Shown here: piece by piece, positions 12,955-32,227 of the stretch | How positions within the stretch are numbered: position 1 is the first letter of the stretch | How the letters are laid out: every line of letters begins with the position of its first letter | NCBI RefSeq assembly: GCF_009932555.1 | Contig: NZ_BLJO01000004.1 | Location: forward strand, 195,640-259,639 | Direction of reading: 5' to 3' | Length of the DNA stretch: 64,000 nt | Source: Steroidobacter agaridevorans | GTDB taxonomy: Bacteria; Pseudomonadota; Gammaproteobacteria; Steroidobacterales; Steroidobacteraceae | Position numbers and translations under genes: made by a program | The notes under the pieces: generated by a model | Databases searched by the model: none | What the model was told of the DNA's origin: nothing | The model's input: the letters and a program-made list of their open reading frames with translations, nothing else

Positions 12955-15936
12955 ATGTCGACGAGTAAATCGATTCGGCGTGCCGTCCAACTGGCATTGT
13001 GGACTGGCGCGGCGACCGTGACGGCCGCGCAGTCCGTGTACGCGGCCGATGATCAAAACATCCAGGAAGTCGTAGTCACCGGCACCCGCATTTCCGTTCC
13101 CGGCGCAATTTCATCGAGCCCGATCCTGTCGATCGGCACCGATGAAATCACCATGCAGCAGGCGACGGAAATCGAGCAAGTGTTCCGCGACCTGCCGGTC
13201 ACCGCAGTGGGTGACGGCTCGAACGTGAACAACGGCACGGCCGGCGCCGCTACGCTCAACCTCCGCGGCCTCGGAGCACAGCGCAACCTCATCCTGATCG
13301 ACGGCAAGCGCGTCACCCCGTTCAACTATGACGGTCAGGTCGACACGTCCATCATCCCGACCGCGCTGATCGAGCGCGTCGACATCGTGACCGGCGGCGC
13401 CTCGGCCGTGTACGGTTCCGACGCCATCGCCGGCGCCGTCAACTTCGTGATGAAGCGCGACTTCGAAGGCGTCGACCTCAGCACCGACTTCTCGCAGTTC
13501 GACGAGAAGGACGGCGATGTGCGCTCGGCGTCGTTCGTGATGGGCGCCAACGTGGCCGACGGCCGCGGCAACATCGTGGTGGGCTTGAACTGGACCGATC
13601 GCGACCCGGTCATGCTGGGCGATCGTCCGCTCGGCCAGCTGGGCATCGTGACCGCCTCCGGCGCTGGCTATGACAACTTCCTCAATGGCGTCGCGCCGAC
13701 GCCGGCTCCAGCCGGTTGCGGCGGCCCGAACTCGGTGGTCTCGGGTGGCTCGACGACGACGTTGCCGACCCGTATCGCGATCGCCGGTGGCGGCGCCATC
13801 GGTCAGTTCCGCGACGATGGTTCCATCGGCGCGAATTGCAGCGTCTTCAACTTCAACCCGTACAACTATTACCAGACCCCGCTCCAGCGCGTCGGCGGTA
13901 TGGTGATGGGCCACTTCGAGGTGAGCGAGCATGCCGAGGCGTATGCCCGGTTCGGCTACACCAGCACTGAAGTGCGTCAGCAGATCGCTGCCTCGGGCAT
14001 CTTCGGCAGCGCCTTCTGGACTCCGCTCAGCAACCCGTTCATCAACTCGTCCGCTCAGACGACGCTGATCAACGCGTACAACGCGGGTCGCGCGGGCGCC
14101 ACGCCGATCGTCAGCACCGGCGGTGACTTCCCCAACTGGCGTGACTTGAACGGCAACGGCGTGGTTGACGCCGCCGACGACGTGCGCATCACGTACTCGC
14201 GTCGTACGGTTGAGTTCGGTCCGCGTTCCACGACCTACGAGAACAATTCGTACAACATCCTGGTCGGTGTGCGCGGCCAGCTGATCGGCGACTGGGACTA
14301 CGACGTGTTCGGTCAGTACGGCGAAGCCGAGCGTTCCAACGTGAGCGCGGGCTATACCAACGTGACCGCGGCTGCGGACGCCATCGACGCCGTGATGGGC
14401 CCCAATGGCGTGCCGGTTTGCCGCAGCGGCAACCCCGGTTGCGTGCCGTTGAACCTGTTCGGCGGCTTCGGCTCGATCACGCAGGAAATGGCTTCGTACT
14501 CGAGCGCCTCGGCCATCGAGCAGCAGGCGTACGAGCAGAAGATCGTCGGCGCTTCGGTCAGCGGTCCGATCAATGCCGTGCAGATTCCGTGGGCGGGCAG
14601 CCCGCTGGCGATGAGCTTCGGCGTGGAGTACCGCGAAGAATTCGGTACCGCGACGCCGGACCTGTGCTGGCAGACGCAACCGGCCAGCTGCTTGGGCGGC
14701 GCCGGCGGCTCCATCCTGCCGATCGCGGGCGGCTTCGACGTTCGCGAAGTGTTCGGTGAAGTGCTGCTGCCGGTGGCGAGCGACCTGCCGGGCATCAGGG
14801 CGCTGGATCTGGAAGCCGGCTATCGCTACGCCGACTACGATCCGTCGGGCGTGAACCGTACCTACAAGTACGGCCTGAGCTACAAGCCGGTCGACCAGGT
14901 GTTGTTCCGTGTGATGAAGCAACGCGCGGCTCGCGCTCCGAACGTGGGCGAGCTGGCGGCGCCGAATACCACTGCGCTGGACAATGCCACGATCGATCCG
15001 TGCTCGGTGGAAAATGCCGGCAACATCACTCCGGAACTGAGCGCGCTGTGTATGTCCACGGGCATGACGGCCGGCCAGGTCGGCGTGGTGAACGATCTCG
15101 TGTCGGGTCAGGTCAACTCCTTCCAGGGCACCGACCTGGATAACCTGCCCAAGCCGGAACAGGCCGATACGTTGACGGTCGGCGTGGTGTGGACTCCGGA
15201 CTTCATTCCGCTCGCGAACGATGTCCTGATCTCCCTCGACTACTACGACATCGACATCAGCGACGTCATCGGCGAGTTCGGCGCTCAGGAAGTGCTGGAC
15301 GCCTGCTATGTCGGCGGCATCGCCGAGGAATGCGCCAAGATCCGTCGTATCGGCGGCGGCTTGACGCTGGACGGCTCGGGTATCGAAACCTATACGACCA
15401 ACCTGAAGTACCTGCGCGCCGAAGGCGTGGAGCTGGGCGTGGCGCTCGGTTTCGACATCGGCAAGTTCGGCAACCTGCGTGTGTCGGCCAACGTCAACAA
15501 GTACCTGACACACGAGTCGCAGAGTAGCGATCTGACCCCGCTGGTGGATTGCGTCGGCACCTTCGGCACGAACTGCGGTAACGGTCCTCAGGGCGGTCCG
15601 CTGCCCGAGACCCGCTGGCTGCAGCGTACGTCGTGGATGTACAACGACTTCACCGTGTCGCTGCTGTGGCGTCACCTGAGCGGCATCGAGAGCGCCGTGC
15701 CGGTGTTCCCGAAGTTCCAGAAGATCGATTCGTACGACTACTTCGATCTGTTCGGCAGCTGGCAGTTCATGGAACAGGCTACGGTGAACTTCGGCATCAG
15801 CAACCTGTTCGAGAAGGATCCGCCGGTGGTCGGCAACGAAGCCGCCGATACGGGTTCGAACTCGGGCAACACCTTCCCGCAGCTGTACGACGCCCTGGGT
15901 CGGCAGTACGCGGTCGGGTTGCGCTTCACGTTCTAA
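12955..15936 (+). CDS. TonB-dependent outer-membrane receptor 1
   Basis: The start is ATG 12955, preceded by GCAGGAGGG; the frame is open further upstream but has no better start. The signal peptide ends near VYAAD (about residue 30). A plug domain follows, with IQEVVVTGTRI, the NLRGLG segment, LIDGKRV and VYGSDAIAGAVNFVMKRDF. A 22-strand-type beta-barrel ends in an aromatic C-terminus (LRFTF). At 993 residues it is a typical large receptor of the Caulobacter/Xanthomonas-style class. It should import a siderophore, glycan, peptide or other bulky substrate using TonB energy. There is no adjacent sigma/anti-sigma pair or SusD partner. It is followed by a terminator and then two TPR-hydroxylase genes. 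Confidence 0.92.
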   Translation: MSTSKSIRRAVQLALWTGAATVTAAQSVYAADDQNIQEVVVTGTRISVPGAISSSPILSIGTDEITMQQATEIEQVFRDLPVTAVGDGSNVNNGTAGAATLNLRGLGAQRNLILIDGKRVTPFNYDGQVDTSIIPTALIERVDIVTGGASAVYGSDAIAGAVNFVMKRDFEGVDLSTDFSQFDEKDGDVRSASFVMGANVADGRGNIVVGLNWTDRDPVMLGDRPLGQLGIVTASGAGYDNFLNGVAPTPAPAGCGGPNSVVSGGSTTTLPTRIAIAGGGAIGQFRDDGSIGANCSVFNFNPYNYYQTPLQRVGGMVMGHFEVSEHAEAYARFGYTSTEVRQQIAASGIFGSAFWTPLSNPFINSSAQTTLINAYNAGRAGATPIVSTGGDFPNWRDLNGNGVVDAADDVRITYSRRTVEFGPRSTTYENNSYNILVGVRGQLIGDWDYDVFGQYGEAERSNVSAGYTNVTAAADAIDAVMGPNGVPVCRSGNPGCVPLNLFGGFGSITQEMASYSSASAIEQQAYEQKIVGASVSGPINAVQIPWAGSPLAMSFGVEYREEFGTATPDLCWQTQPASCLGGAGGSILPIAGGFDVREVFGEVLLPVASDLPGIRALDLEAGYRYADYDPSGVNRTYKYGLSYKPVDQVLFRVMKQRAARAPNVGELAAPNTTALDNATIDPCSVENAGNITPELSALCMSTGMTAGQVGVVNDLVSGQVNSFQGTDLDNLPKPEQADTLTVGVVWTPDFIPLANDVLISLDYYDIDISDVIGEFGAQEVLDACYVGGIAEECAKIRRIGGGLTLDGSGIETYTTNLKYLRAEGVELGVALGFDIGKFGNLRVSANVNKYLTHESQSSDLTPLVDCVGTFGTNCGNGPQGGPLPETRWLQRTSWMYNDFTVSLLWRHLSGIESAVPVFPKFQKIDSYDYFDLFGSWQFMEQATVNFGISNLFEKDPPVVGNEAADTGSNSGNTFPQLYDALGRQYAVGLRFTF

Positions 15937-15949
15937 CCATGCCTCGAAT

Positions 15950-16018
15950 CCGGCGGCCCGCGCGGGCCGCCGGTCTCCAAGCAAATCACTGCGGCGGGCT
16001 TCGGCCCGCCGTTTTTTT
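15950..16018 (+). terminator. Perfect palindrome and intrinsic terminator after receptor 1
   Basis: A perfect 24-base palindrome lies at 15950-15973 (CCGGCGGCCCGC and its complement). It is followed by a canonical terminator: CGGCGGGC / TTCG / GCCCGCCG (15992-16011) with seven T residues to 16018. This should isolate the receptor transcript from the TPR-hydroxylase gene 18 bases further on. Confidence 0.9.
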
Positions 16019-16035
16019 GCGCTAGGCTCATTCGC

Positions 16036-17292
16036 ATGTCGAACCAGGTCGAACAGCTGATACGCACCGCCGGCCAGCTGGCCAACGCCGGGCGCTGGGA
16101 TGAGGCAGAGCGCACGTGGCTGGAAGTCCGCCGCCTCGAGCCGCACAACTCGAAGGCATTGTTCAGTCTCGGCGTGCATGCGTTGCAGAGAGGCGAGCTG
16201 GCGCCGGCGATCGAATTGTTACGTTCCGCACGCTCGGTCGCGCCCGCCGATCCTGTGATCCTGATGACGCTGGTCAATGCATTTGCCCGGCAGGGCGATC
16301 GGGAAGCGGAGCATGAAGTCATCGAGGCGACGCTCGCGCTCGATGCCTATTTTCTGCCGGCGCTGCTGGCGCGAGCCAATTGGATGGAGCGCTATGGAAG
16401 AGCGTCCGCCGCCGCGACCATGTATCGGAATGCTTTGAAGGTCGCGCCGCCGCCGAGTCACTGGCCGGCACAGCTCAAGCCCCAATTGGAATATGCGCGC
16501 GACGTCGTCGAGCGTTACTCGAAAGCGCTCGGCGAGCATTTGGAAACAAAGCTGGCGGAGACACGCGCTGCTCTCGACCCGTCGGTCGCGGGGCGCTGGC
16601 AGGAAGCCGCGGCGATCGTCACTGGCCGCTCCAAACCGTTTGTCTCGGAAAGCAATCAATTGCTGGTGCCGCGGCTGCCGGCGATTCCATTTTTCGATCG
16701 CAGTCACTTTCCATGGATCGGCGAGTTCGAAGCGAAGACCGATGCCATCCGCGCGGAACTGCTGGCAGCCCTACAGTCCCAGAACGATCGCTTCAATCCA
16801 TACATCGCGTATGGCAAAGGCGATCCCGTCAATCAGTGGCGCGAGTTGAATCATTCGCTGCGCTGGAGCGCGTTCCACCTTTGGCGCGGCGGCGTGCCGG
16901 TGCAGGAAAATCTGCAGCTGTGTCCGTTGACAGCCGAAGCGCTCGCACTCGTGCCGCAGGTGACTATCGGCGGCCTGTGTCCGAATGCCATGTTCTCGGC
17001 ACTGGCGCCGAGAACTCACATTCCACCTCACAACGGCGAAACCAACGCGCGCCTGGTTGCGCACCTGCCCTTGATCGTGCCCGATGGCTGCTGGCTGCGA
17101 GTGGGCTACGAAAAGCACGAGTGGAAAGTCGGCGAGGTCGTGGTGTTCGACGACACGCTCGAGCACGAGGCGATGAATGGCAGCGATGAGCTGCGGGTCG
17201 TGTTGATCTTCGACGTTTGGAATCCGCTGCTCGCGCCCGCCGAGCGAGACATGGTGCGCGCGATGACGGCGGCCGTGCGCGAGTTCCAATAG
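16036..17292 (+). CDS. TPR protein with aspartyl/asparaginyl beta-hydroxylase domain (paralogue A)
   Basis: The 418-residue protein begins with TPR-like helical repeats (about residues 1-170; for example AGRWDEAERTWLEVRRLEPHNSKALFSLG). A C-terminal aspartyl/asparaginyl beta-hydroxylase domain follows (about 215-415). Family motifs are HIPPHNGETNARLVAHLPL, WKVGEVVVFDDTLEHEAMNG, then a conserved Arg and VVLIFDVWNP. The His of PPHNG and of LEHEA are the expected iron ligands in this two-His enzyme family, which hydroxylates Asp/Asn side chains using 2-oxoglutarate. No signal peptide is visible, so it should act in the cytoplasm, with the TPRs recognising the target. The next gene is a paralogue 15 bases downstream. 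Confidence 0.87.
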   Translation: MSNQVEQLIRTAGQLANAGRWDEAERTWLEVRRLEPHNSKALFSLGVHALQRGELAPAIELLRSARSVAPADPVILMTLVNAFARQGDREAEHEVIEATLALDAYFLPALLARANWMERYGRASAAATMYRNALKVAPPPSHWPAQLKPQLEYARDVVERYSKALGEHLETKLAETRAALDPSVAGRWQEAAAIVTGRSKPFVSESNQLLVPRLPAIPFFDRSHFPWIGEFEAKTDAIRAELLAALQSQNDRFNPYIAYGKGDPVNQWRELNHSLRWSAFHLWRGGVPVQENLQLCPLTAEALALVPQVTIGGLCPNAMFSALAPRTHIPPHNGETNARLVAHLPLIVPDGCWLRVGYEKHEWKVGEVVVFDDTLEHEAMNGSDELRVVLIFDVWNPLLAPAERDMVRAMTAAVREFQ

Positions 17293-17307
17293 GACATCGG
17301 GCTCGTC

Positions 17308-18486
17308 ATGCAAACTCCGGCAGATCAGATGCGCAGTCTCGTCGAAGCCGCTGCCGCCGCTTTGCAGGCGGGCGATGCGGGCGCCGCGCGCCGTCACTTC
17401 GAGCAGATCGTTGCGAGCGGGCAGGCCAATGCGGGCGTGTTTGTCGGCCTGGCGTTAGCGTGTCAGTCGCTCGGCGATCGAGCGGCCATGCTGGCGGCCA
17501 TCGAGCGCACGCTCGCACTCGATCCTGTGAATATCCGTGCGCTGGTCATGAAGGGCGATCATCTCGTCGCCTCGAATGCTTCGCGCTCGGCGACCGCATT
17601 CTATGCAGCAGCGATGCAGGCGGCTTCGCAAGCCACAGCATTGCCTCCCGGCGTGGTGCAGATGGCGCGTCACGCCGAACAAATGTATCAACGAATCAAC
17701 GCACAGCTGGAAAGCCACGTTCGCACACAGCTCGAAGCTACGGGCCACGCGCAAGGCGGCAGTGCGCGGTTCGCGCAGTCCGTCGAAATTCTGATGGGCA
17801 AGAAACAACGCTACGTGCAGGAGCCGCGCGCTTATTTCTTTCCGGAACTGGCGAACATCCAGTTCTTTCCGCGCGAGATGTTTCCGTGGCTCGCGCCCCT
17901 CGAGGCGGCAACGTCCGAGATCGCTGCCGAGCTGCAGCAGTTGATCGCGACCGATCAAGGATTCGAGCCTTACATTCGCCAGTCGGCCGATGCGCCGACG
18001 CGCCAGGACCATCCGTTGCTGAACAATTCAGCCTGGAGTGCCTTCTTTCTGTGGAAGGACGGAGCGCCAGTGCCGGGCAATGCCGAGCGCTGCCCGAAAA
18101 CATTGGCCGCGCTTGCCGGTCTGCCGCTGTGCCGGATTCCCGGACGCACGCCCTCGATCTTGTTTTCACGGCTTGCGCCGGGCGCGCGCATTCCGCCGCA
18201 TACGGGTTTCTTGAACACACGCCTGATCTGTCATTTGCCGTTGATCGTGCCGCCGAATTGTCATTTACGCGTCGGCAACGAGCGGCGCGAATGGCGCGCC
18301 GGCGCAGCCTGGGTGTTCGACGACACCATCGAGCACGAGGCCATCAATGGCAGCGACCGTTCGCGCGTGGTGCTGATATTCGACATATGGCGGCCGGAAC
18401 TTTCCGCCCAGGAACGAGAGCAGGTGGCGGCATTGCTGGCAGCGATCGATTCGTTCGGCCAGCGCGGCGAGGCATGGAGCGCGTGA
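17308..18486 (+). CDS. TPR protein with aspartyl/asparaginyl beta-hydroxylase domain (paralogue B)
   Basis: The 392-residue protein has the same architecture as its upstream neighbour: N-terminal TPR-like helices (about 1-150) and a hydroxylase domain (about 185-385). The domain shows RIPPHTGFLNTRLICHLPL, WRAGAAWVFDDTIEHEAING and RSRVVLIFDIWRPEL. The predicted iron His residues and the C-terminal Arg that contacts 2-oxoglutarate are retained. The 15-base gap to paralogue A implies a bicistronic transcript. The two differ enough in the TPR part to suggest different targets. Cytoplasmic; substrate unknown. Confidence 0.86.
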   Translation: MQTPADQMRSLVEAAAAALQAGDAGAARRHFEQIVASGQANAGVFVGLALACQSLGDRAAMLAAIERTLALDPVNIRALVMKGDHLVASNASRSATAFYAAAMQAASQATALPPGVVQMARHAEQMYQRINAQLESHVRTQLEATGHAQGGSARFAQSVEILMGKKQRYVQEPRAYFFPELANIQFFPREMFPWLAPLEAATSEIAAELQQLIATDQGFEPYIRQSADAPTRQDHPLLNNSAWSAFFLWKDGAPVPGNAERCPKTLAALAGLPLCRIPGRTPSILFSRLAPGARIPPHTGFLNTRLICHLPLIVPPNCHLRVGNERREWRAGAAWVFDDTIEHEAINGSDRSRVVLIFDIWRPELSAQEREQVAALLAAIDSFGQRGEAWSA

Positions 18487-18605
18487 GTCCTGGCCGTTCG
18501 TGTCCGGGGGCGGCCTGCTGAGCTGAATTGGCCCTGGGTCACATATCTGGCCGGTGCGGTCTCGGATATAGTCCCAAGCGCCTTTCACCGCTGCGGAGTC
18601 GTGTC

Positions 18606-18923
18606 ATGGCCAAGCTCGAAGTCGTGTGCGCCAGTGGCGCATTGATGCTGTCGGCACTTTTACTCGGCTGTGCAAATGCGCCGAGCCAGCCGCAGGCCGG
18701 TGCAAACCAGGCCCAGGCTGCTCCGGCCAAGCGGGTGGCAGCCAAGGATCGGACTCCGTCGTGGCAGAAGTATCGAGTCAGCGGTTCGCGGATTGCGCGC
18801 ACCCTGGATGCCAACGGCAAACCGAAGACCGCCGATTACGTGCAGAGCACGACCAGCAATGGATTACAGATGTTGCCGGCAGTCACGATGACTCCCTGTG
18901 AGCGGACCCGTCACGGCTGTTGA
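18606..18923 (+). CDS. Small putative lipoprotein
   Basis: The ATG at 18606 gives MAKLEVVCASGALMLSALLLGCAN, a signal peptide with a lipobox (LLGC). The mature protein of about 82 residues has a Gln/Ala-rich spacer and a segment WQKYRVSGSRIARTLD. This vaguely recalls the GSRI stretch of TonB-receptor plugs, but the rest does not. Two Cys lie near the C-terminus (PCERTRHGC). No family is recognised. A GC-rich hairpin, GGCGCCT / AGGCGCC, lies at 18940-18959 between this gene and the convergent lipoprotein gene. Confidence 0.6.
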   Translation: MAKLEVVCASGALMLSALLLGCANAPSQPQAGANQAQAAPAKRVAAKDRTPSWQKYRVSGSRIARTLDANGKPKTADYVQSTTSNGLQMLPAVTMTPCERTRHGC

Positions 18924-18974
18924 ACGGTCGCGCTTGGGCGGCGCCTCGAGTCAGGCGCCTGCTCCAGCCATCGC

Positions 18975-19319
18975 TTAGTTGCCCATGACCGGGTCGGCGC
19001 CGCCGCCACCCTTGCGGTCGCGGGCCTTCATCATCTGCTGCGCGGCTTCTTCTTCCATCTTGAATTGAGCGCGGGTCTTGCAGACGCGCTTGCCGATGCG
19101 AGTACCCAACGGCTTCTCGTTGCGACAGACGACTTCGCTGTCGTCGGCCGCCGCCTGAGCGATCGATTGTGGCGCCGGTGCGGGCTCGGCTGCCGGTGCG
19201 GCGGGAGCTACATTTGCCGGCACGGCCGGGGCGGGCGCTGGCAGGCTCTCCTTCGGTGCGGGCGCGCCGCAACCAGCCAGTGTCACCGCGAGCACTGCGT
19301 AAATCGTAATAGCACGCAT
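18975..19319 (-). CDS. Small lipoprotein with CR-(x)n-G[ST]R-(x)n-C-x-T motif
   Basis: The preferred start is ATG 19319, with a strong ribosome binding site (GCAGGGAGCG); an upstream in-frame ATG at 19370 is less likely. MRAITIYAVLAVTLAGCG is a signal peptide with lipobox LAGC. A Pro/Ala-rich linker leads to a compact domain VVCRNEKPLGTRIGKRVCKT, followed by an amphipathic helix rich in Met, Glu and Arg. The same Cys-Arg / Gly-[Ser/Thr]-Arg / Cys-x-Thr pattern occurs in the exported protein at 29195-29614. The two Cys could form a disulphide outside the cytoplasm. Function unknown. Confidence 0.68.
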   Translation of the reverse strand: MRAITIYAVLAVTLAGCGAPAPKESLPAPAPAVPANVAPAAPAAEPAPAPQSIAQAAADDSEVVCRNEKPLGTRIGKRVCKTRAQFKMEEEAAQQMMKARDRKGGGGADPVMGN

Positions 19320-19456: not shown

Positions 19457-19939
19457 CTACTTGATGCGCCGGACGCGCAGCGCCGGGCCATTGGGAACGT
19501 CCATCAAGAACGAGCCGAAAGCGCCGCGCCGGATCGTGACCTGGTCGCCGGCCTTGGGCGCAAAAGCCGTCGAGCCGGTGATCTGGCGCCACGTCTGGCC
19601 GTTGTCGAGCGCGATTCGCAAACCGTCCCTCATGGAGCTCACGTCGCTGACGTTTGCAGTCACGGATGAGAGCGCTGCTTCGCTCTGCTCCGAGCCCGCC
19701 TTTTCGGCGCGCGATTCAGTGACATTGGTTTGCAGCCCGAAGCTGCTCTCGGCGGACGGCGCCGGCACATGCTCGCCGCCACGCTGCAAGTACGCGACCG
19801 CCCGGTCGTAGCACGCGAGCCGTTCACCGTTCTGCTGAATGCGCGAGCACGTCAGAAACTCCGGCGGCATCTCGACCGGTTCGGCTGCCAACGACGACAG
19901 CGAGTACCACAACAATCCGATGAGCAGGCAACGGCGCAT
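19457..19939 (-). CDS. Exported hypothetical protein (160 aa)
   Basis: The start is ATG 19939, with an excellent ribosome binding site (GGAAGGAGAGGATCAA); the upstream in-frame extension lacks one. The signal peptide MRRCLLIGLLWYSLSSLAAEP leads to an N-terminal motif C-x-I-x7-RLACYD, common in small exported proteins and in some secretion-associated proteins. After a linker comes a compact C-terminal beta domain (LDNGQTWRQITGS, then GDQVTIRRGAFGSFLM and LRVRRIK). I do not know a named family. It stands alone, divergent from the long leader of receptor 2. Confidence 0.7.
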   Translation of the reverse strand: MRRCLLIGLLWYSLSSLAAEPVEMPPEFLTCSRIQQNGERLACYDRAVAYLQRGGEHVPAPSAESSFGLQTNVTESRAEKAGSEQSEAALSSVTANVSDVSSMRDGLRIALDNGQTWRQITGSTAFAPKAGDQVTIRRGAFGSFLMDVPNGPALRVRRIK

Positions 19940-20507: not shown

Positions 20508-20550
20508 TTTTCAAGCTCCCTTTTCGGGGGAGCCGCAGCAAATACGCTTG

Positions 20551-23639: not shown

Positions 23640-23655
23640 CTGGTTATTTGATGGC

Positions 23656-25497
23656 ATGAGCCCAGTCCCAAAGGCGACGTTACAGGCATGGATGCGTGAA
23701 GCCGCCGCGCTGTATGGCGCCGGTCAGTTCGAGCGAGCGGAACCGTTGTGCCGCCAGCTTGCGAGCGCGCTGCCGACCAACGAGCCGGTGCTGAACTTGT
23801 GGGGCGCCGTATTGCATGCGCTCGAGCGATACGCCGAAGCCCAGCCGGTGTTCGCAAAGCTCATCGAACTGCAGCCGCACAACGCGAACTATTGGATGAA
23901 CCTGGGGACGGTGCGACGGGGACTGGGGCAGTACGATCAGGCGTTGCAGGCGTACACGCGCGCCGCCGAGTTGGGCTGCGCCACACCCGAGTTTCATTTC
24001 AACGTCGGGCTCACGCACCTGGACCGACGCGATTACGAATCCGCGCGCGCGGTACTCAAGCGGGCTGTCGAACTGGCGCCCGCCAACGCTTTGATGCGCT
24101 CGGAATACATCAAGGCCTGTTACGAATCCATGGCGATGGAAGAGGCGACAGCCGCGCTGCAAGGCTGGACTGATTTCTCGGGCCTGGCGCCGGAGCAGCT
24201 CGCCGAGGCCGGTCATCGCATCCTGAATCTTGGCGAGACCCGGCTCGCCGAGCGGGTCGTGAGCCAGCTGCATGCCACGCAACTCGACCCTCGCGCGACG
24301 CTGACGTTGGCGCAAATCATGGAACGCACCAATCGGATTCCCGAAGCTCAGCAGCTGATCGCTCGACTGGAAGCGGATCCGCAGGCCCAATCGCTGGGCA
24401 CGGACCTGCTCATCATGCGAGCCCAGATCGCGCAGCGGGCCGGGAACCACGAGCTCGCGCGTGAGCTGTTCGAGCGGACATTGCAGGGCACGAGCCAGTT
24501 TCACGACCGGCATTTCGCATTGTTTCCTCTGGTGCGCTCGCTGGACGCCTTGCGCAGCTATGACGAGGCGTTCGCGGCCATGGTGGAGGCTCACGAGTCG
24601 CAGATCGCGCACCTCGAATTGACGGCGCCGCTCGCGGTCGTGCGAGGCAGGCCGACCTGGGAGATCGCGAAATGGAGCTGCGATCCGCAAGACATCGAAC
24701 GGTGGGACGCGGCCGATCCGCCTTCCCTGCAGGACAGCCCGATCTTCGTCGTCGCATTTCCCCGCTCGGGCACGACGCTGCTGGAACAGACATTGGACGC
24801 GCATCCCGCGCTGCGTTCGATGGACGAGCAGCCGATCGTGCAGGCTGCGCTCGACGATATCGTCGCCGCCGGAGTTTACTACCCGGAGCAGCTGGCGAAG
24901 CTCACGCCCGAGCAACTGCGCACGATTCGAGCGCGTTACTTCACACGCGCGGCCGCCAAGGTGCAGCTGGAGCCCGGGCAGCGCCTGGTGGATAAGAATC
25001 CGCTGAACATGCTGCGCTTGCCGGCAATTCAACGACTGTTCCCGAACGCCCCCATCATTCTGGCGATCCGCCATCCTTGCGATGTGGTTCTGAGCTGTTT
25101 CATGCAGCACTTCCGCGCGCCGCATTTCGTGATGTTGTGCTCGGACCTGCAGACGCTGGCGGACGGCTACCGTCGTTCGTTCGACTTCTGGTATCAGCAG
25201 TCGGCCCTGCTGTCGCCGAATGTGCTGGAGGTTCGCTACGAGAATTTCGTGGCCGACTTCGAGCGCGGCGTGCGCGAGATCGCGGAGTTCCTGCACCTGC
25301 CCTGGCACGACGGCATGCTGGCGCCGGCCGAGCACGCACGCGCCAAAGGTTTCATCAGCACGCCGAGCTATTCGCAGGTCGTGCAGCCGGTGAATCAGAA
25401 GGCGGTGGGGCGCTGGCGCGCCTACGAACGACACCTCGCGCCGGTCATCCCTCTGCTACGGCCTTATTTACAGCGCTGGGATTACTCGGATCGATGA
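23656..25497 (+). CDS. TPR-sulfotransferase
   Basis: The 613-residue protein has N-terminal tetratricopeptide repeats (about residues 1-320, with repeats such as YAEAQPVFAKLIELQPHNANYWMNLG) and a C-terminal sulfotransferase domain. The PAPS 5'-phosphosulfate loop is FPRSGTTLLEQTLDAHP (P369 onward). The 3'-phosphate-binding segment is IILAIRHPCDVVLSCF, preceded by a VDKNPLN motif. It should transfer sulfate from PAPS to a hydroxyl or amine acceptor in the cytoplasm, the TPRs providing protein recognition. The style resembles the tyrosylprotein-sulfotransferase-like branch more than carbohydrate enzymes, but the acceptor is unknown. Its 3' end overlaps the convergent oxygenase gene by 53 bases. 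Confidence 0.88.
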   Translation: MSPVPKATLQAWMREAAALYGAGQFERAEPLCRQLASALPTNEPVLNLWGAVLHALERYAEAQPVFAKLIELQPHNANYWMNLGTVRRGLGQYDQALQAYTRAAELGCATPEFHFNVGLTHLDRRDYESARAVLKRAVELAPANALMRSEYIKACYESMAMEEATAALQGWTDFSGLAPEQLAEAGHRILNLGETRLAERVVSQLHATQLDPRATLTLAQIMERTNRIPEAQQLIARLEADPQAQSLGTDLLIMRAQIAQRAGNHELARELFERTLQGTSQFHDRHFALFPLVRSLDALRSYDEAFAAMVEAHESQIAHLELTAPLAVVRGRPTWEIAKWSCDPQDIERWDAADPPSLQDSPIFVVAFPRSGTTLLEQTLDAHPALRSMDEQPIVQAALDDIVAAGVYYPEQLAKLTPEQLRTIRARYFTRAAAKVQLEPGQRLVDKNPLNMLRLPAIQRLFPNAPIILAIRHPCDVVLSCFMQHFRAPHFVMLCSDLQTLADGYRRSFDFWYQQSALLSPNVLEVRYENFVADFERGVREIAEFLHLPWHDGMLAPAEHARAKGFISTPSYSQVVQPVNQKAVGRWRAYERHLAPVIPLLRPYLQRWDYSDR

Positions 25498-26059
25498 ACA
25501 GCAGGTAAGTGGAAATGATGTACTTGTCGCCCGAGACCGGTGGCATGCCTTCGTGCTGGTACATCCAGTACGGAGGAAACATCAGCAAGCGGCCGGCGCG
25601 CGCCGGGATGGCCACGTCCAGTTGCGGGAAGCGGGTTTCGCCGCCTTGCTCGACATCGTTCAGATACCACAGCAGCACCAGGTAACGATTCGCCACATGG
25701 TTGATGGAATCGAAATGCAGCTGAAACTGCTCCTGTTGCCCGGCGCGGTAGCGCTTCAACGTCAGGTTGGAGAACACCGGCGAGTTGGGGATGGGAAGGG
25801 CCAGCTCGATGTCGCGGTTGTAGCGCTCCAGCGCCCGATCGATGAGCTTGCGGAACATGCCCTGGAAGGCCGCGTCCGACAGGCGGCTGACGTTCAGCTC
25901 GGTCCAGGCCGAGTCCTCCAATCCTCTACGCACGCCGCGGCCGTTGCGCAGCTGGAAACGCTCCAGCCCCGAGAACGAGCCGATCATTTGCTGGCACAGC
26001 TGCGGATCCAGGTCCTGATCGTAGGTGCGGATATAGCGGCGCAGGTCTGCGTGGCTCAT
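25445..26059 (-). CDS. Prolyl-4-hydroxylase-like 2OG-Fe(II) oxygenase
   Basis: The 204-residue soluble enzyme has a complete facial triad: H-x-D in QLHFDSINH and a distal His in YQHEGMP. A Lys ten residues after the distal His (GDKYIIS) is the 2-oxoglutarate-binding position used in collagen-type prolyl 4-hydroxylases. Other family features are WYLNDVEQGGETRFP and the RAGRLLMFPPYWMYQH strand. It should hydroxylate a protein, peptide or amino acid using 2-oxoglutarate and O2. It is divergent from the next TPR-hydroxylase (21-base gap) and overlaps the end of the TPR-sulfotransferase gene tail-to-tail. There is no signal peptide. Confidence 0.87.
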   Translation of the reverse strand: MSHADLRRYIRTYDQDLDPQLCQQMIGSFSGLERFQLRNGRGVRRGLEDSAWTELNVSRLSDAAFQGMFRKLIDRALERYNRDIELALPIPNSPVFSNLTLKRYRAGQQEQFQLHFDSINHVANRYLVLLWYLNDVEQGGETRFPQLDVAIPARAGRLLMFPPYWMYQHEGMPPVSGDKYIISTYLLFIDPSNPSAVNKAVAEG

Positions 26060-26080
26060 AGGCAGCTATAGTAGCTCGGA

Positions 26081-27352
26081 ATGAATTCACCCGACGTCCA
26101 AACCCTGTTACAGCAAGGCCGGCTCGACGAAGCGGAGCGGCTGGCGCGCCAGTCGTTGCAGTCCCGGCCAGGCGATATCGATTCGCTCAACGCCTTGGGC
26201 CTGATCGCCCTGCGCCGCGGACAGCTGCCACGCGCGCAGCAGTTGCTGGAATCCGCCATCGAATCCAATCCCAACCATGCCTTGAGTCGTCACTATCTCG
26301 GGCGCGTGCACGACGCCGCCGGCAACGTGGATGGCGCGCTCGCAGCGCATGGCGCCGCCATCAAGCTGGCGCCGGGCATGTTCATCATCCGCTTGCACTA
26401 TGCGATCGCGCTGGAACGCGCCGGGCAGCAGGACCAGGCGGCGCTCCAGTATTTCCGGGCCAGCAACGACGCTCAGGCGCAAGGCCGCTGGACTAGCGCC
26501 GAGACCACGGCGCCGGGCTTGCGGCCGATGGTCGAACATGCCGTGCGCATGGTGAGACAGACGCGCAAGGCGACGTTCGCGAATCTGCTCGAGCCGTTGC
26601 GACAAAAATTCGGCGCCGATTCGCTCGACCGTGTCGAGCGCGCGCTGCGCATCTACTTTCGGGAAGAGGCGCCGGTCTATCCGGATCCGCGCCAGCAACC
26701 GACATTTTTCTATGTGCCGGACGTGCCGCCGGCTGCCTATCTGGATCGAGCGCTGTTCCCCTGGATCGAGAGGCTCGAAGCGCAGACGTTCGCGATTCGA
26801 CAAGAGTTGTTACAGCTCCTGCCTAGCACCGCCGGCCGTGAGCGCGTGTTTACGACGGAGGCGATCGAAAAGGAAAACCTGCGCGGCCTGCAATCGCCGC
26901 CGAGCTGGAATGGTTATTACTTTTACCGTCATGGCGAGCGGCGCGCCGACAACTGTGCGGCGTGCCCCGTGACGGCGAGCACGCTCGACATCCTGCCGTT
27001 GTCTCATGTGCGCGATCACGGTCCGGAAGTGTTGTTCTCGGTGTTCACGGCCGGCACGCATTTGTTGCCCCATCGCGGCGTGACCAACACGCGACTGGTC
27101 GGACATCTGCCGTTGCTCGTGCCGCCCGATTGCGCCTTGAAGGTCGGCGGCGAAGTGCACGAGTGGCGCGAAGGTCGCGCCGTCATTTTCGACGACACCT
27201 ACGAGCACGAGGCGTGGAATCGCAGTGAGCGCACCCGCGTCGTGCTGATCTTCGACATCTGGAATCCGCATCTCACCGAGGCGGAGCGCGCCGCGCTCGA
27301 AATGATCGTGCCCGCGATGGGGGATTTCCGGAAAGCGTCGGAGGCGGCGTAG
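26081..27352 (+). CDS. TPR protein with aspartyl/asparaginyl beta-hydroxylase domain (paralogue C)
   Basis: The 423-residue protein is the third with this layout. TPR helices fill about 1-150 (SRPGDIDSLNALGLIALRRG, then ALSRHYLGRVHDAAGNVDGA). The hydroxylase domain (about 215-420) shows HLLPHRGVTNTRLVGHLPLL, WREGRAVIFDDTYEHEAWN and RTRVVLIFDIWNPHL. Predicted iron His residues are intact. It ends 2 bases before the hydroxylase-sulfotransferase fusion gene, so the two are almost certainly co-transcribed and probably act on the same pathway. Confidence 0.87.
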   Translation: MNSPDVQTLLQQGRLDEAERLARQSLQSRPGDIDSLNALGLIALRRGQLPRAQQLLESAIESNPNHALSRHYLGRVHDAAGNVDGALAAHGAAIKLAPGMFIIRLHYAIALERAGQQDQAALQYFRASNDAQAQGRWTSAETTAPGLRPMVEHAVRMVRQTRKATFANLLEPLRQKFGADSLDRVERALRIYFREEAPVYPDPRQQPTFFYVPDVPPAAYLDRALFPWIERLEAQTFAIRQELLQLLPSTAGRERVFTTEAIEKENLRGLQSPPSWNGYYFYRHGERRADNCAACPVTASTLDILPLSHVRDHGPEVLFSVFTAGTHLLPHRGVTNTRLVGHLPLLVPPDCALKVGGEVHEWREGRAVIFDDTYEHEAWNRSERTRVVLIFDIWNPHLTEAERAALEMIVPAMGDFRKASEAA

Positions 27353-27354
27353 TC

Positions 27355-29169
27355 ATGCGTTTGCCCAAGCCGTTCTATCGTTTGCCGTGGCGCTTCGATG
27401 TGGAACGCCTGCGCGCCGAGGTGGCGGCCTTGCCTGCTGAAGCCTGGGCTCGGCACCCGAACGATATCAAGGGCAATAGCGCGGCACGTCTGATCAGCGT
27501 CGACGGCGGCGAGAACGACGACGTCAACGGCCGCATGCAAGCGACGGCGCATCTCCAGCAATCGCCGTACATCCGTCAGATTCTGGCGAGCTTCGGCGTG
27601 GTGTGGAGTCGCTCGCGCCTGTTGCGCCTGGCGCCGGGCGCGATTGTGCCGGAGCATGCCGATATCAACTATCACTGGTTCACGCGCGTCCGTCTGCACA
27701 TTCCCATCGCGACGCGGCCGGAAGTTCGTTTCTATTGCGCGGATCAGGTCGTGCACATGGCGGCGGGCGAGGCTTGGGTATTCGATAACTGGCGGCCGCA
27801 TCGAGTCGAGAACTTCACGACGGACGAGCGCATTCACCTGGTCGCGGATACTTCGGGCAGCGCCAACTTCTGGCAGCTGGTCGCGCAAAGTGACAATCCC
27901 GCCGCGCCAGTGCGCCAGGTTCCATACATCCCGGACCGTCAGCTGTCCCCGCTCATGGAGCGCGCCAGGCTCGCGCCCGTCATGACGCCCGGTGAGATCG
28001 ATTTCTTGATTCTCGACCTGCGCTCGGAGCTGATCGCTCAGGAAACCATTCCCGACGGTCGCGCGCGCCTGGTTCGCTATCACGGTTTGTTGGAAGCGTT
28101 CTGCAAGGATTGGCGGCAACTGTACGCGTTGTATGGCGACGAGCCGGATGGCTGGCCCGAGTTCGTCCGTCTTCGCGACAGCATTCGGAACGCGTCGCGC
28201 GAGTTGTCCGAAGGTCTGTTGATGCGCACGAACCGAGTGGCGGCCCATCAAGTGCTCGAAGGACGGGTGTTGCGCGCAATGCTTTCGTTGCCACAGCAGC
28301 CTGCGAGCGCGCCTGCGCCGTCGCGCGCACGCACGACGAAGTTGGAGGCGCCGATTTTTATCGTGTCCGCACCGCGTTCCGGCAGCACGCTGTTGTTCGA
28401 AACGTTGGCAGCCAGCTCACAGCTGTGCACGGTCGGCGGAGAAGCGCATTGGCTGGTGGAAGGCATCGAGAGTCTGCGGCCGGGCGCGCCGGGCGTTGAT
28501 TCAAATCGCCTGACCGCGGAGCACGCCAGCGACGCCATCGCCGATGATATTCGCCAGGAGATTCTGTCACGCCTGCGGGACCATACCGGTCAGCCGCTGC
28601 CGGAGCCCGGCCAGCGATGGTTCCTGGAGAAGACACCGAAGAACTCGCTGCGCATTCCGTTCTTCAATCGCATCTTTCCAGATGCGCGATTCGTGTTTCT
28701 GTGGCGCGATCCGCGTGAAAACATCAGCAGCATCATCGAAGCCTGGCGCTCCGGCCAGTGGCGCACGTATCCAAAGCTGGATGGCTTCGATGGGCCGTGG
28801 TCGATGTTGTTGCCGCCTGGCTGGCGCGGCATGAACGGCCGGCCGCTGGCCGAAATAGCCGCGTGGCAGTGGGATCGAACCAATGCCCACATCCTCGATG
28901 ATCTGCAGCGGTTGGGCGCTGAACGCTGGGCGGTCGTCGAATATGCTAATTTGCTTCGCGATCCGGCCGCCACGGTCGCCAGGCTATGCGAGTTCCTGCG
29001 TCTACCGGTAGATTCAGCGCTGGCCGAACGTTTGTCTGCGCCTTTGCCGCCGTCCCGCTACACACTGACCGCGCCCGCCGCGGACAAGTGGAGGACAAAT
29101 GAAGCGCAGATTGCTCCGGTGTTGCCGTCCGTTCAGGCTACGTGGGATAGGTTAAGGGCGCTGAGTTGA
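27355..29169 (+). CDS. Bifunctional aspartyl beta-hydroxylase / sulfotransferase fusion
   Basis: The 604-residue protein has two catalytic domains. Residues about 1-190 form an aspartyl/arginyl-type beta-hydroxylase domain. It shows EHADINYHWFTRVRLHIPI, MAAGEAWVFDNWRPHRVEN and a distal Arg-x-His-Leu segment. Residues about 330-600 form a sulfotransferase with the PAPS loop SAPRSGSTLLFETL (P340 onward), EKTPKNSLRIPFF and the 3'-phosphate segment FVFLWRDPRENISSI. A helical linker of about 130 residues joins them. The fusion implies that hydroxylation and sulfation act on one substrate or in one step series. There is no signal peptide or TPR; the upstream TPR-hydroxylase, 2 bases away, may supply substrate binding. 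A product of hydroxylation then O-sulfation is my inference. Confidence 0.87.
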   Translation: MRLPKPFYRLPWRFDVERLRAEVAALPAEAWARHPNDIKGNSAARLISVDGGENDDVNGRMQATAHLQQSPYIRQILASFGVVWSRSRLLRLAPGAIVPEHADINYHWFTRVRLHIPIATRPEVRFYCADQVVHMAAGEAWVFDNWRPHRVENFTTDERIHLVADTSGSANFWQLVAQSDNPAAPVRQVPYIPDRQLSPLMERARLAPVMTPGEIDFLILDLRSELIAQETIPDGRARLVRYHGLLEAFCKDWRQLYALYGDEPDGWPEFVRLRDSIRNASRELSEGLLMRTNRVAAHQVLEGRVLRAMLSLPQQPASAPAPSRARTTKLEAPIFIVSAPRSGSTLLFETLAASSQLCTVGGEAHWLVEGIESLRPGAPGVDSNRLTAEHASDAIADDIRQEILSRLRDHTGQPLPEPGQRWFLEKTPKNSLRIPFFNRIFPDARFVFLWRDPRENISSIIEAWRSGQWRTYPKLDGFDGPWSMLLPPGWRGMNGRPLAEIAAWQWDRTNAHILDDLQRLGAERWAVVEYANLLRDPAATVARLCEFLRLPVDSALAERLSAPLPPSRYTLTAPAADKWRTNEAQIAPVLPSVQATWDRLRALS

Positions 29170-29194
29170 GTTAAGGATGCTCGAGGAGTCGGTC

Positions 29195-29614
29195 ATGATG
29201 TTTCGTCAGCTCTGGTTGATGGTGGTCGCCATCGGTGCGACGGGTCAGGTACTCGCGCAGGACGCTGCTCCCGCCGAACCGGCAACGGCACCCCAAGCCG
29301 CAACTCCGGCGCCGCCACCGCCCGATGCCAGGCCAGTCAGCGAAAACGCCGCCACCCCGGAGCCTGCCCCCAAAGCAAGCTCACTGACCGAAGGCGAGCT
29401 CGACGCCGACAAGATCATCGCCATGCAAAAGGCCGGCTACCAGATCAAGAACGAGAACGGCCAGATACTGCTGTGCCGTCAGGACGTGCCGACCGGCTCG
29501 CGGCTCCGAAAAAAGACGTCGTGCATGACCGCGCGTGATTGGGACCGGCTGCAGGAAGACAACAAGCTGCAGCTCAAGGCGATCGAGCGCACGCCGCGCA
29601 TGTCCAATAAGTGA
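29195..29614 (+). CDS. Small exported protein with CR-(x)n-G[ST]R-(x)n-C-x-T motif
   Basis: The preferred start is ATG 29195, with GAGGAG six bases upstream; ATG 29177 is possible but poorly spaced. The signal peptide MMFRQLWLMVVAIGATGQVLAQD is followed by a Pro/Ala/Glu-rich linker. The C-terminal domain reads LLCRQDVPTGSRLRKKTSCMTARDWDRLQ. It shares the Cys-Arg, Gly-Ser-Arg, Cys-x-Thr pattern with the lipoprotein at 18975-19319. The pair of Cys suggests a disulphide. It lies just downstream of the hydroxylase-sulfotransferase fusion on the same strand, so it is a candidate partner or substrate, though nothing proves that. Confidence 0.68.
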   Translation: MMFRQLWLMVVAIGATGQVLAQDAAPAEPATAPQAATPAPPPPDARPVSENAATPEPAPKASSLTEGELDADKIIAMQKAGYQIKNENGQILLCRQDVPTGSRLRKKTSCMTARDWDRLQEDNKLQLKAIERTPRMSNK

Positions 29615-29635
29615 GCGGATTCGTCGCTGCTACTG

Positions 29636-30325
29636 CTAGAACGAGTAGCCGTGACGTTCGATGACCAGCCGATCGCGCTCGGCCACCAATTGCGCCAGCT
29701 CGGCATCGTAGAGCTGGCGATGAGGCGCATGCTCTGAAGTATTCAGTGCCGGCGCAGTGCTCATGTAGTCACGCAGCGCCGATGTCACAGGCTCACCTGC
29801 CGACTCCAGCAGGGGTGGCACTTCGACACGCAACTGCTCCATGCGCGCCAGCCTTACGGCGGTGACATCGGGCCCATACAAATAACGATATAGAAACGAA
29901 TAGAAGCCCAGTCCGCTGCCACGGATCGGTGCGAGAGCAACGCTCGGCAGATTCAGTCCCTGATTGATGTACGCTGCCGGCAGGGCCGCGAGCACTCGAT
30001 CCAGCAACGCCGTGTCGCGCTCCAGATTCAGCATGTTCCGAATCGTGCCGGCGAAGTCCAGCGCGCCGCCGTTGCTCAGCGCTTGAAACAATGCATTCGG
30101 TCTAGGGCGCGAGCGTTGAAAGCTGTACCACGAAACGTAATAGCTCCAGGGATTGCGCACCAGGCCCAGCAGCGGCAGCGCTGCGTACTGCGCAGGCAGC
30201 ATGGAGCGGGGCAGGTGATACCCGAGTTGCCTCGCGCCCGCGATGTGCTGCATGAGACCGGCATTCACAAAGGTGCCGCCGGACTTATGCAAATGCAGGA
30301 ACACGAATCGAGGGGTAACGATCAT
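29636..30325 (-). CDS. Sulfotransferase family protein (229 aa)
   Basis: This single-domain PAPS-dependent sulfotransferase has a phosphosulfate loop FLHLHKSGGTFVNAG near the N-terminus and a 3'-phosphate segment LLGLVRNPWSYYVSWYSF at about residues 54-71. This loop style resembles membrane-type glycan sulfotransferases of the Sulfotransfer_2 kind rather than the TPR-linked enzymes nearby. There is no signal peptide. It is the last gene of a minus-strand operon and overlaps the upstream hydroxylase gene by 4 bases (ATGA), which indicates translational coupling. The acceptor is unknown. Confidence 0.82.
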   Translation of the reverse strand: MIVTPRFVFLHLHKSGGTFVNAGLMQHIAGARQLGYHLPRSMLPAQYAALPLLGLVRNPWSYYVSWYSFQRSRPRPNALFQALSNGGALDFAGTIRNMLNLERDTALLDRVLAALPAAYINQGLNLPSVALAPIRGSGLGFYSFLYRYLYGPDVTAVRLARMEQLRVEVPPLLESAGEPVTSALRDYMSTAPALNTSEHAPHRQLYDAELAQLVAERDRLVIERHGYSF

Positions 30326-30966
30326 CCCGTAGCGTGCGTGGCGAAGTGCCGGTCGACCGCAGCGTTATGCTGGCCGAGATCGCGCTCGCCCGAGGTCATG
30401 AGTGCGAGCAAGGCGGGCGTCGGCAGGAAGTCACATATCATGTGAGTGCGCGAACGATCCGGATCCGCGTTCCATACGGCATGCGGCGCGCTGTTGTTCA
30501 ACACCCAGACTTCGCCGGGCCGCATCAGATAGGTGAGCTCGCCCGCGATCATATGCACCTGCTCATGCGATTCGATCGGAAAATGCAGCCGCAGGGTCTT
30601 GGCGAAATAGGGTGCGCGATCTATGTGCGGGTCGATGGATACACCGCCGGGCAGGCGCGCGAGTAAACATCGCTGCGGCGGGGCCGGTATCAACTGCTCG
30701 ATGATCTCGCGGGCATACGGCAGCATCGCCAGCGGCTCGCGATCCTCGATCGGCAAGGCTCCCTGGGCGGGGGCGTAACCGCGAAGAAACAAAGCCTCGG
30801 CGTTGCGATGAACGCCGACGCGTCCGCCCGTCGAGCCCCACAACGTCGCAGGCAGGACCGCGACCTCGGCGGCCAGACGCTGCGCATCGATCCGCACCGG
30901 CAGCCGCAGACAGCCACCCACCAGAGCGGTTTTGTCGATGACGGGATGGCCGGGAAGGTCGAGCAT
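30322..30966 (-). CDS. Stand-alone aspartyl/asparaginyl beta-hydroxylase domain protein
   Basis: The 214-residue protein is made only of the hydroxylase domain. It shows SIDPHIDRAPYFAKTLRLHFPI, LMRPGEVWVLNNSAPHAVWN and SRTHMICDFLP. It is closest in pattern to the N-terminal half of the fusion protein at 27355 (D-x-Y/F-x-R-x-H-x-PI, then GE-x-W-x-x-N-N/W), not to the TPR-linked copies. It is coupled by a 4-base overlap to the sulfotransferase gene that follows and lies 2 bases after the DUF192 gene. Hydroxylase and sulfotransferase are therefore paired here as separate genes, as they are fused at 27355. Confidence 0.83.
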   Translation of the reverse strand: MLDLPGHPVIDKTALVGGCLRLPVRIDAQRLAAEVAVLPATLWGSTGGRVGVHRNAEALFLRGYAPAQGALPIEDREPLAMLPYAREIIEQLIPAPPQRCLLARLPGGVSIDPHIDRAPYFAKTLRLHFPIESHEQVHMIAGELTYLMRPGEVWVLNNSAPHAVWNADPDRSRTHMICDFLPTPALLALMTSGERDLGQHNAAVDRHFATHATG

Positions 30967-31511: not shown

Positions 31512-32227
31512 TGCTGTTTCATCCGGCCCTGCGCCGTCATCGCTCCGCCTTCAAGTGTTTCATCTTTGTCTTCGGCGTCGAAGTCAATCCGGCCTACATA
31601 GTCGAAGCGCGGCAGCAGGATGACGCCGTTGCCCCGCACGGCCCGTGCAGGGTGTGTACAAAAGCCGCGCGCAATGATGCGGTACGAACGGGAACGGTGC
31701 GGTATGCCGACCAGCGGCTCCTGCCGCACCTCATCGAGCGTGCATTTGTTATCTCCCTGGGTGCTGTAAAACTCGCCCAGGCCTTCTCGTATGACAGTCA
31801 CATTCACCGGCAGTGCCTTGGCCGACTGTCCTTCGCGCAACGCGGCGATCCCGAACAGCAGCACCAGGCGGCCGCCGTCGACACCGTCTTTGTGGCTGAA
31901 ACGTACGCGAATACCGCCATCGGGGCGCACGGCGCCGGTGCACTCCGTGCCTTCGTTGCCCCAAACGAGCTCTGCTTGCACTGCGCCCGACAGCCGGGCC
32001 TTGAGAGAACCACTGCCGTCCGGCAGGCAGGTCGGGGCTGTCGGCGTGTTGTTAGCGTTGTCAGCGTCGTTGCCTGTCGCTTGAGCATGGACCTTGCAGG
32101 ACAGTCCCAACGTTAATGCACAGATGATCGTTAGTGCGGGCGGACAGCGACGCCAGCCCGCCAGGTGCGAGGAGCCGCAGCCATGTCCGAGCGCGAGGAC
32201 GACGTCGTTATAAAACCGTTGCAGCAT
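31508..32227 (-). CDS. Exported hypothetical protein heading the minus-strand operon
   Basis: The open frame continues far upstream as antisense to glgC. The plausible start is ATG 32227, giving a basic N-terminus, a hydrophobic stretch (ALTIICALTLGLSC) and a probable cleavage after VHAQA. The mature part of about 190 residues has two or three Cys pairs and a beta-rich pattern (GIRVRFSHKDG, GRLVLLFGIAAL, VNVTVIREGLGEFYS). No family is recognised. The start lacks an obvious ribosome binding site, so the N-terminus is uncertain. Its end overlaps DUF192 by 4 bases. The 219 bases to glgC hold divergent control regions. Confidence 0.6.
   Translation of the reverse strand: MLQRFYNDVVLALGHGCGSSHLAGWRRCPPALTIICALTLGLSCKVHAQATGNDADNANNTPTAPTCLPDGSGSLKARLSGAVQAELVWGNEGTECTGAVRPDGGIRVRFSHKDGVDGGRLVLLFGIAALREGQSAKALPVNVTVIREGLGEFYSTQGDNKCTLDEVRQEPLVGIPHRSRSYRIIARGFCTHPARAVRGNGVILLPRFDYVGRIDFDAEDKDETLEGGAMTAQGRMKQQ

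Follow-up and report, generated by a model that had tools for sequence, protein, structure and literature searches.

Closest described systems

The gene island considered here lies at positions 12955-30966 of a 64,000-nt stretch of the 8.0 Mb Steroidobacter agaridevorans genome (contig NZ_BLJO01000004.1, positions 195,640 to 259,639 of the forward strand; the window), and in it TonB-dependent receptors (TBDRs) stand among hydroxylases with the PF05118 domain (AspH) and sulfotransferases (STs). As far as the cited account goes, the closest bacterial parallel to have been tested, in which a protein is sulfated before it is exported, involves RaxST of Xanthomonas, a tyrosylprotein sulfotransferase that uses PAPS and acts on RaxX before its export (PMC6637879). 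The island may be like the RaxX-RaxST pair in that a bacterial ST would act on a co-encoded and later exported protein, but RaxX comes with a double-glycine leader and the RaxAB type I exporter, in place of which the island has an ST fused to TPR domains (TPR-ST), a TBDR and hydroxylases (PMC6637879). No exporter appears among the Pfam matches of the island proteins scanned, in a scan that was not aimed at RaxA, RaxB or RaxX.

Enzymes of the relevant kinds have also been found beside TonB-dependent receptors. In Pseudomonas aeruginosa the Fe2OG dioxygenase gene piuC adjoins the TBDR gene piuA, but PiuC is linked to piuA expression rather than to receptor modification, and the part of the source dealing with this pair mentions no ST or ASPH-like enzyme (PMC11878004). 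The methanobactin operons of some groups are described as bringing together a TonB-dependent transporter, a sulfotransferase and a ribosomal peptide (PMC3621798). Pfam matched none of the scanned island proteins to MbnB/MbnC or the MATE family, short precursors not having been searched for. The pairing of an ASPH-like and a TPST-like enzyme with a receptor is seen in none of these systems as presented in the sources cited, and no description of a cluster of TBDR, TPR-ST and TPR-AspH was found in the open-access PMC literature, a search that leaves subscription papers uncovered.

The remaining points of comparison are eukaryotic. ASPH is a human enzyme of the endoplasmic reticulum (ER) that hydroxylates EGF domains; it resembles AspH3 of the island in having TPR domains before PF05118 and in its catalytic segment, which can be aligned, but the bacterial proteins have no signal peptide as judged by eye, and the candidate substrates lack the EGF-type motif. 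Among solved structures, the catalytic domain of TPR-ST is most closely related to the protein-tyrosine sulfotransferases TPST1 and TPST2, which are Golgi enzymes without TPR domains, and it shares an aligned Glu with them, whereas the ST of the island is fused to TPR.

Comparison with related genomes shows that the order TBDR, TPR-ST, an antiparallel oxygenase gene resembling prolyl 4-hydroxylases (P4H-like; not always present), TPR-AspH and AspH-ST fusion recurs in several genera, and that a receptor of the TBDR2 type is specifically tied to this enzyme set. We suggest, with a probability of roughly 45%, that the island encodes a system for modifying side chains in the cytosol, dedicated to an outer-membrane receptor.

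Organization of the island

The genes are as follows.

12955..15936, + strand: TBDR1, 993 aa, ATG start; Pfam PF07715 (Plug) and PF00593 (barrel)
16036..17292, + strand: AspH1, TPR and aspartyl/asparaginyl beta-hydroxylase; PF05118 E 5.7e-43, TPR_14 and TPR_2 above cut-off
17308..18486, + strand: AspH2, aspartyl/asparaginyl beta-hydroxylase with a long N-terminal part; PF05118 E 3.4e-44
18606..18923, + strand: small lipoprotein, 105 aa; weak DUF6491, E 0.03
18975..19319, - strand: small exported Cys-loop lipoprotein of the A1 family (profile A1)
19457..19939, - strand: p205 (a label of this analysis), exported protein
20701..23577, + strand: TBDR2, 958 aa, ATG start, reading frame open from 20500; PF07715 and PF00593
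23656..25497, + strand: TPR and TPST-like ST, 613 aa; PF13469 E 1.7e-36, Pfam TPR
25445..26059, - strand: P4H-like 2OG-Fe(II) oxygenase; PF13640 E 3.5e-11
26081..27352, + strand: AspH3, TPR and ASPH-like hydroxylase; PF05118 E 1.4e-44, Pfam TPR
27355..29169, + strand: AspH4-ST fusion, short PF05118 domain and ST; PF05118 E 1.4e-14, PF13469 E 6.1e-30
29195..29614, + strand: small exported Cys-loop protein, 139 aa, A1 family
29636..30325, - strand: ST2, probable ST, from sequence segments and an AlphaFold2/Foldseek match to SULTs
30322..30966, - strand: AspH5, short PF05118 hydroxylase; PF05118 E 6.8e-14

Pfam thus bears out much of the initial annotation, which had read from the letters alone two TBDRs (both with Plug and barrel domains), five PF05118 domains (16036, 17308, 26081, 27355 and 30322) and a P4H-like oxygenase at 25445. 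The several small exported proteins that it had noted are those at 18606-18923, 18975-19319 (minus strand) and 29195-29614. It had also, correctly, described hydroxylase and ST genes as adjacent, coupled or fused. Within the plus-strand runs the gaps are 99, 15, 78, 2 and 25 nt (78, 2 and 25 from TBDR2 on), the ST2 and AspH5 genes overlap by 4 nt, and there is one AspH-ST fusion. The antiparallel P4H gene occupies the 583 nt separating TPR-ST from AspH3, its 3' end overlapping TPR-ST by 53 nt.

As the genome encodes at least 116 TBDRs, a nearby TBDR means little by itself, and neighbourhoods were therefore tested. The gathering of AspH domains is not a matter of chance, since the island holds five of the six PF05118 matches of the whole genome; it holds two of the eight PF13469 matches. 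The sixth PF05118 gene (contig C4, 51062-51523) is some 157 kb away from the island, and the fetched stretch of 17 kb around it contains no labelled ST or TBDR.

Conservation of the neighbourhood

Loci from other genomes (fetched loci and genomes bear L and G numbers) were gathered by similarity to AspH3, blind to receptors and STs, and the best 80 of 189 confirmed were kept; distances were counted from the AspH3 counterpart, except in L016 and L046, where the focal gene is a short AspH. A first TBDR profile under-reported receptors (for example beside the ST of L095), and profiles TB2 and TB3 were used instead. The AspH3 of Peristeroidobacter agariperforans (L015) is 95% identical to that of the island. 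Of the 22 closest loci (L015-L036), 19 have an ST and 17 a TBDR at no more than 3 kb, the exceptions being L021, L022 and L026, which have neither, L016, which is cut at the contig start, and L035, whose TBDR is at 7 kb. The antiparallel P4H gene is in the same place in 18/22, and the AspH-ST fusion follows in 14/22, with one more cut by a contig end. The linkage is found in fewer of the next 24 loci (L037-L060; 15 with an ST no farther than 3 kb, 11 with a TBDR no farther than 6 kb) and is nearly gone in the last 34 (L061-L094), in which PF05118 genes are mostly short (L061, L062 and L064 are long), no ST lies within 3 kb and only 3 have a TBDR within 6 kb. Conserved neighbourhoods in related genomes, the check that the initial annotation had proposed, are thus found, and they support the link to the receptor that it had supposed.

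The composition of the module varies. In Rhodanobacter-type loci (Rhodanobacteraceae; L043, L044, L047 and L051) the core is reduced to TBDR, TPR-ST and TPR-AspH, and in L048 and L049 several extra STs accompany it. Extra STs are likewise present in L041 (1-9953) and L058 (1-9925), from Rhodanobacter and Dyella, where five ST genes and an AspH-ST fusion stand beside TPR-AspH, but with no TBDR in the fetched stretch. Apart from enzymes, nothing is found in the 22 closest loci as often as the TBDR; the other recurring genes are DUF192 (9) and p205 (7), and unlabelled clusters of open reading frames (ORFs) reach at most 7/22.

Seen from the receptor, the linkage is tighter. A search of 150 genomes of the family with TBDR2 (E 1e-120) returned 19 matches, 16 of them, TBDR2 itself included, at 49% identity or more. 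A TPR-ST ORF adjoins 15 of these 16; the last (G129) lies where a contig ends and has a TPR fragment beside it, and in G090 the receptor match is itself partial. Among the matches listed, PF05118 is found within 6 kb of 14/16, while G129 and G093 have none on the receptor contig and have PF05118 elsewhere in the genome. Of the three weaker relatives (35-41% identity), one (L318) adjoins a P4H-like gene. The plug of TBDR2 begins with GSRIRRVDEETASP, and the corresponding motif GSRIRRVDxETASP is present in 21/27 island receptors, against 1/28 other ST-paired receptors and 0/51 others (24 from the S. agaridevorans genome and 27 from other loci, some of these in islands but more than 400 nt from an enzyme). 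A short GSR/GTR segment is common to receptors (VTGSRI) and to the small exported proteins at 18606-18923, 18975-19319 and 29195-29614 (TGSRL, SGSRI and LGTRI).

With at least 116 TBDRs in the genome, genes of this kind might have been brought together by chance or by horizontal transfer, without any joint function. Such a gathering is very improbable here, as the order is kept over several genera, with the antiparallel P4H gene in 18/22 loci and a receptor link in 15 to 16 of 16.

Sulfotransferases and receptors beyond the island

PF13469 is present in 127/150 sampled genomes of the family, the best matches listed being open frames mostly longer than 600 aa. Twenty long STs were picked by hand down the Pfam ranking, each from a different genome and, where possible, far from contig ends (TPR was confirmed by Pfam in the one checked). 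A TBDR adjoins the ST or its tandem copy at 17/20 of these loci, on the same strand in 16; those without are L175 (cut), L177 and L178. In 20 control regions from 14 of the same genomes, a TBDR was present in 7 with TB3 or with a profile trained on the controls too, and in 5 with the earlier TB2 (trained on the ST loci and not on the controls), the ST loci scoring 17/20 under either, although the criteria differ in that any TBDR within 16.6 kb counts for controls and only an adjacent one for STs. Across the phylum PF13469 occurs in 133/199 genomes, and the ST-receptor link is widespread, not universal. On a FastTree phylogeny of ST domains, TBDR linkage takes 16 changes, against 46.7 in shuffles (0/500 as low), a contrast inflated by near-copies; it is a clustered trait that has changed many times, rather than the mark of one clade.

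None of the 20 long-ST loci of the family contains a labelled hydroxylase or the small Cys-loop protein. It therefore seems that hydroxylation and sulfation need not act together, and the proposal of the initial annotation that a shared substrate is first hydroxylated and then sulfated finds no support, tests for site motifs (below) being negative as well. ORF clusters around the long STs include an MTTB type (8/20 loci), a DAO/GCV_T type (8) and an enolase-superfamily type (7), with one example of each checked by Pfam, which suggests that TBDR/ST pairs without hydroxylases (L173-L192) are concerned with the uptake of methylated amines or betaines.

What the enzymes resemble

All five PF05118 domains score above the curated cut-off (52.4-152.2 bits against 22.6), with E-values of 5.7e-43 to 1.4e-44 in the long proteins (16036, 17308 and 26081) and of 1.4e-14 and 6.8e-14 in the short domains. 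Searched against PDB chain sequences, AspH3 finds entries named ASPH (E 8e-28, about 145 residues of the catalytic segment aligned). The TPR domains that had been noted earlier are detected by Pfam in 16036, 23656 and 26081; AspH2 (17308) has no Pfam TPR family at E 0.001, TPR-type NCBIfam models matching it weakly. The ASPH-type arrangement, with TPR N-terminal to PF05118 and a His pair and Arg, is present in AspH1 and AspH3. Two His and one Arg are kept in at least 90% of 65 long AspH sequences, at positions that we take to be those of the Fe-binding His and 2-oxoglutarate Arg of known enzymes. In AspH5, H114, D116, H162 and R173 are invariant across 9 sequences. The P4H-like protein matches prolyl 4-hydroxylases in the PDB (E 1e-8) and LH3 weakly.

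The ST domain of TPR-ST is closest, among PDB chain sequences, to protein-tyrosine sulfotransferases 1 and 2 (E 6e-18), and in the alignment to TPST1 the PAPS-binding segments and the Glu are present. Columns P9, R10, G12, T14, E31, R112 and S120 are kept in at least 85% of 134 sequences, the conserved Glu presumably sitting at the place of the known catalytic residue. For the ST domain of the fusion the first PDB match is the CurM ST. Of the three ST domains originally annotated, those at 23656 and 27355 are confirmed by PF13469; for ST2 (29636) Pfam gives no match at 0.001 (PF00685 comes nearest, E 0.069). Its segments HLHKSGGT and RNPWSYYVSWYSFQ are conserved among 10 sequences, and the top PDB matches of its AlphaFold2 model (pLDDT 80.9) in Foldseek are SULTs (best E 1.6e-3, probability 1.00, TM 0.50). 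ST2 is thus probably, though not certainly, a sulfotransferase.

The TPR-ASPH-like, TPR-TPST-like and P4H-like enzymes accordingly resemble, in sequence, enzymes that modify proteins, as had been supposed. This does not extend to the short PF05118 domains (AspH4 and AspH5), which look more like hydroxylases of small molecules, namely free amino acids: the AspH part of the fusion matches an L-proline cis-4-hydroxylase and an entry named proline oxidase in the PDB, and both short domains match TIGR04531 weakly. They bring up a different explanation, in which the substrate is a small molecule or lipid, either an imported ligand that is hydroxylated and sulfated inside the cell or a metabolite (metallophore or lipid) that is recovered by the receptor, in the manner of methanobactin or of LpxO/OlsC. 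PF05118 does include lipid hydroxylases, and AspH3 scores with the NCBIfam models of OlsC (107.8 bits) and LpxO (71.1 bits), though these are the highest values for AspH1-3 and fall far under the cut-offs of 450 and 500. The amine-catabolism genes near many hydroxylase-free ST/TBDR pairs (MTTB type) would fit such chemistry, as would the combination of transporter, sulfotransferase and peptide reported for methanobactin operons (PMC3621798). Beyond the module, however, no gene is shared by more than 9/22 of the closest loci, so that no synthetase, precursor or exporter is conserved as far as clustering sees; the mostly short PF05118 genes are without such linkage to STs and receptors, and the TPR fusions and the similarity to TPST and ASPH favour proteins. 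We consider a small-molecule substrate unlikely. An Rfam scan of positions 5000-40000 gave nothing at the gathering score, and hence no riboswitch that could name the ligand of the receptor.

Proposed modification before export, and its candidate substrates

No signal peptide was recognized by eye on the enzymes, and PAPS and 2-oxoglutarate are cytosolic; the enzymes should therefore act before export. TPR domains, for their part, commonly mediate binding to other proteins. Together with the receptor being the commonest non-enzyme of the conserved loci, and the small exported protein the second candidate, these features lead us to rank modification of a protein above small-molecule chemistry. 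In the cytosolic system that we propose, an exported protein encoded alongside the enzymes would be recognized ahead of Sec export or in the course of it. The TPR-ASPH-like, TPR-TPST-like and P4H-like enzymes, the AspH-ST fusion and AspH5/ST2 would bind to this protein, through TPR domains where these are present, and would install hydroxyl groups with 2-oxoglutarate and Fe and sulfate with PAPS; the modification might tune ligand binding or receptor assembly. If the system is of this kind, the partner TBDR is probably the substrate, with the small Cys-loop protein as the next candidate.

Several observations weigh against this proposal. Modification of an outer-membrane protein precursor in the cytosol has, to our knowledge, no precedent. 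L021, L022 and L026 carry AspH3 without ST or TBDR, the stretches fetched for L037, L038, L040 and L045 contain the TPR-ST/TPR-AspH pair but no TBDR, and two of the weaker TBDR2 relatives (35-37% identity) have no labelled partner. Of 20 ST loci picked by hand across the phylum, from many families, only 8 have an adjacent TBDR, which shares the strand of the ST in 6 cases. The plug-start motif may mark only a clade. The fraction of Tyr in acidic surroundings is not raised in paired receptors (0.073 in island, 0.095 in ST-paired and 0.100 in unpaired receptors), that of island receptors even being below that of unpaired ones (p 0.03), and the EGF-type ASPH motif, which we take to be CX[DN]X4[YF]XC, is found in 0/106 receptors (27 + 28 + 51) and 0/79 small proteins. 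With both tests negative no site can be named. Mean Tyr content is 5.1% in ST-paired receptors outside islands and 3.8% in unpaired ones, in sets that differ in origin.

If it is the receptor that is modified, TonB-dependent uptake would be subject to a new kind of post-translational control, many bacterial STs would acquire a function (PF13469 being in 127/150 genomes of the family), and soluble bacterial models of ASPH and TPST would become available. The function of bacterial TPR-ST and TPR-AspH proteins becomes a testable question with named candidate substrates. That a general layer of this kind exists in Proteobacteria, in which TPR-guided cytosolic STs covalently edit TBDRs (or a small partner) before export and ASPH- and P4H-like hydroxylases join in some lineages, as a bacterial parallel to what Golgi tyrosine sulfation and ER hydroxylation do to receptors, is a doubtful extension.

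Small exported proteins

The signal segments of these proteins were judged by eye. Relatives of the lipoprotein at 18606-18923 stand beside TBDR1 or AspH2 in L015 and L017. Over the genome, profile A1 finds two members of the Cys-loop family at E 0.1 (18975-19319 and 29195-29614), both inside the island. Five members scanned belong to no Pfam or NCBIfam family (best E 0.06). The AlphaFold2 model of the 29195-29614 protein (mean pLDDT 66.0) has an N-terminal helix, a low-confidence Ala/Pro-rich stretch and a beta-beta-alpha core, and a fold search with it gave no PDB match at E 0.001. The position of the protein varies between loci: it follows AspH-ST in L015-L017, stands beside AspH5 and/or ST2 in L016, L017, L018, L020 and L136, and is found amid STs and TBDRs without AspH in L165, L166 and L171.

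In the 150 family genomes the Cys-loop family has 98 matches in 77 genomes, and a listed PF05118 lies within 12 kb of 25 of them. Once the seven contigs that could be matched to sources of the profile are removed, this holds for 14/87 members, a low count as it is taken among matches listed, against 0.78 expected from how densely PF05118 occurs, taking 3.3 Mb per genome. The Poisson p (1.7e-13) makes the excess look stronger than it is, because several related genomes share places. By genome, PF05118 accompanies the family in 57/77 cases against 29/73 for genomes without it (Fisher p 3e-5, uncorrected for kinship).

This proximity and co-occurrence, the confinement of both genomic copies (E 0.1 or better) to the island and the recurrence of the protein at differing positions of island operons would be expected if the small Cys-loop protein (29195-29614, 18975-19319) were itself what is modified, with the receptor as the unmodified partner of a lipoprotein or secreted factor. 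We regard this as quite unlikely. The family is missing from all 20 long-ST loci, its proteins have no conserved Asp/Asn site and few acidic Tyr, and in the phylum the wider family (profile A4) occurs in only 17/199 genomes, L261 being the one locus of 20 fetched that has AspH, TBDR and ST nearby. The idea that the family is exclusive to this system was rejected, as 19 of those 20 loci have no AspH near. Exported proteins with CRxxxxTGSRxxxxxCxT (L253-L272) are scattered over other Proteobacteria, mostly away from these enzymes.

Flanking sequence

The tail of the examined range, at about 31512-32227, lies outside the conserved genes. Upstream of the island, on the plus strand, is an unusually long UvrA-like ORF of 1930 aa (6739-12531), in which domains for UvrA interaction and DNA binding are combined with several ABC ATPase parts.

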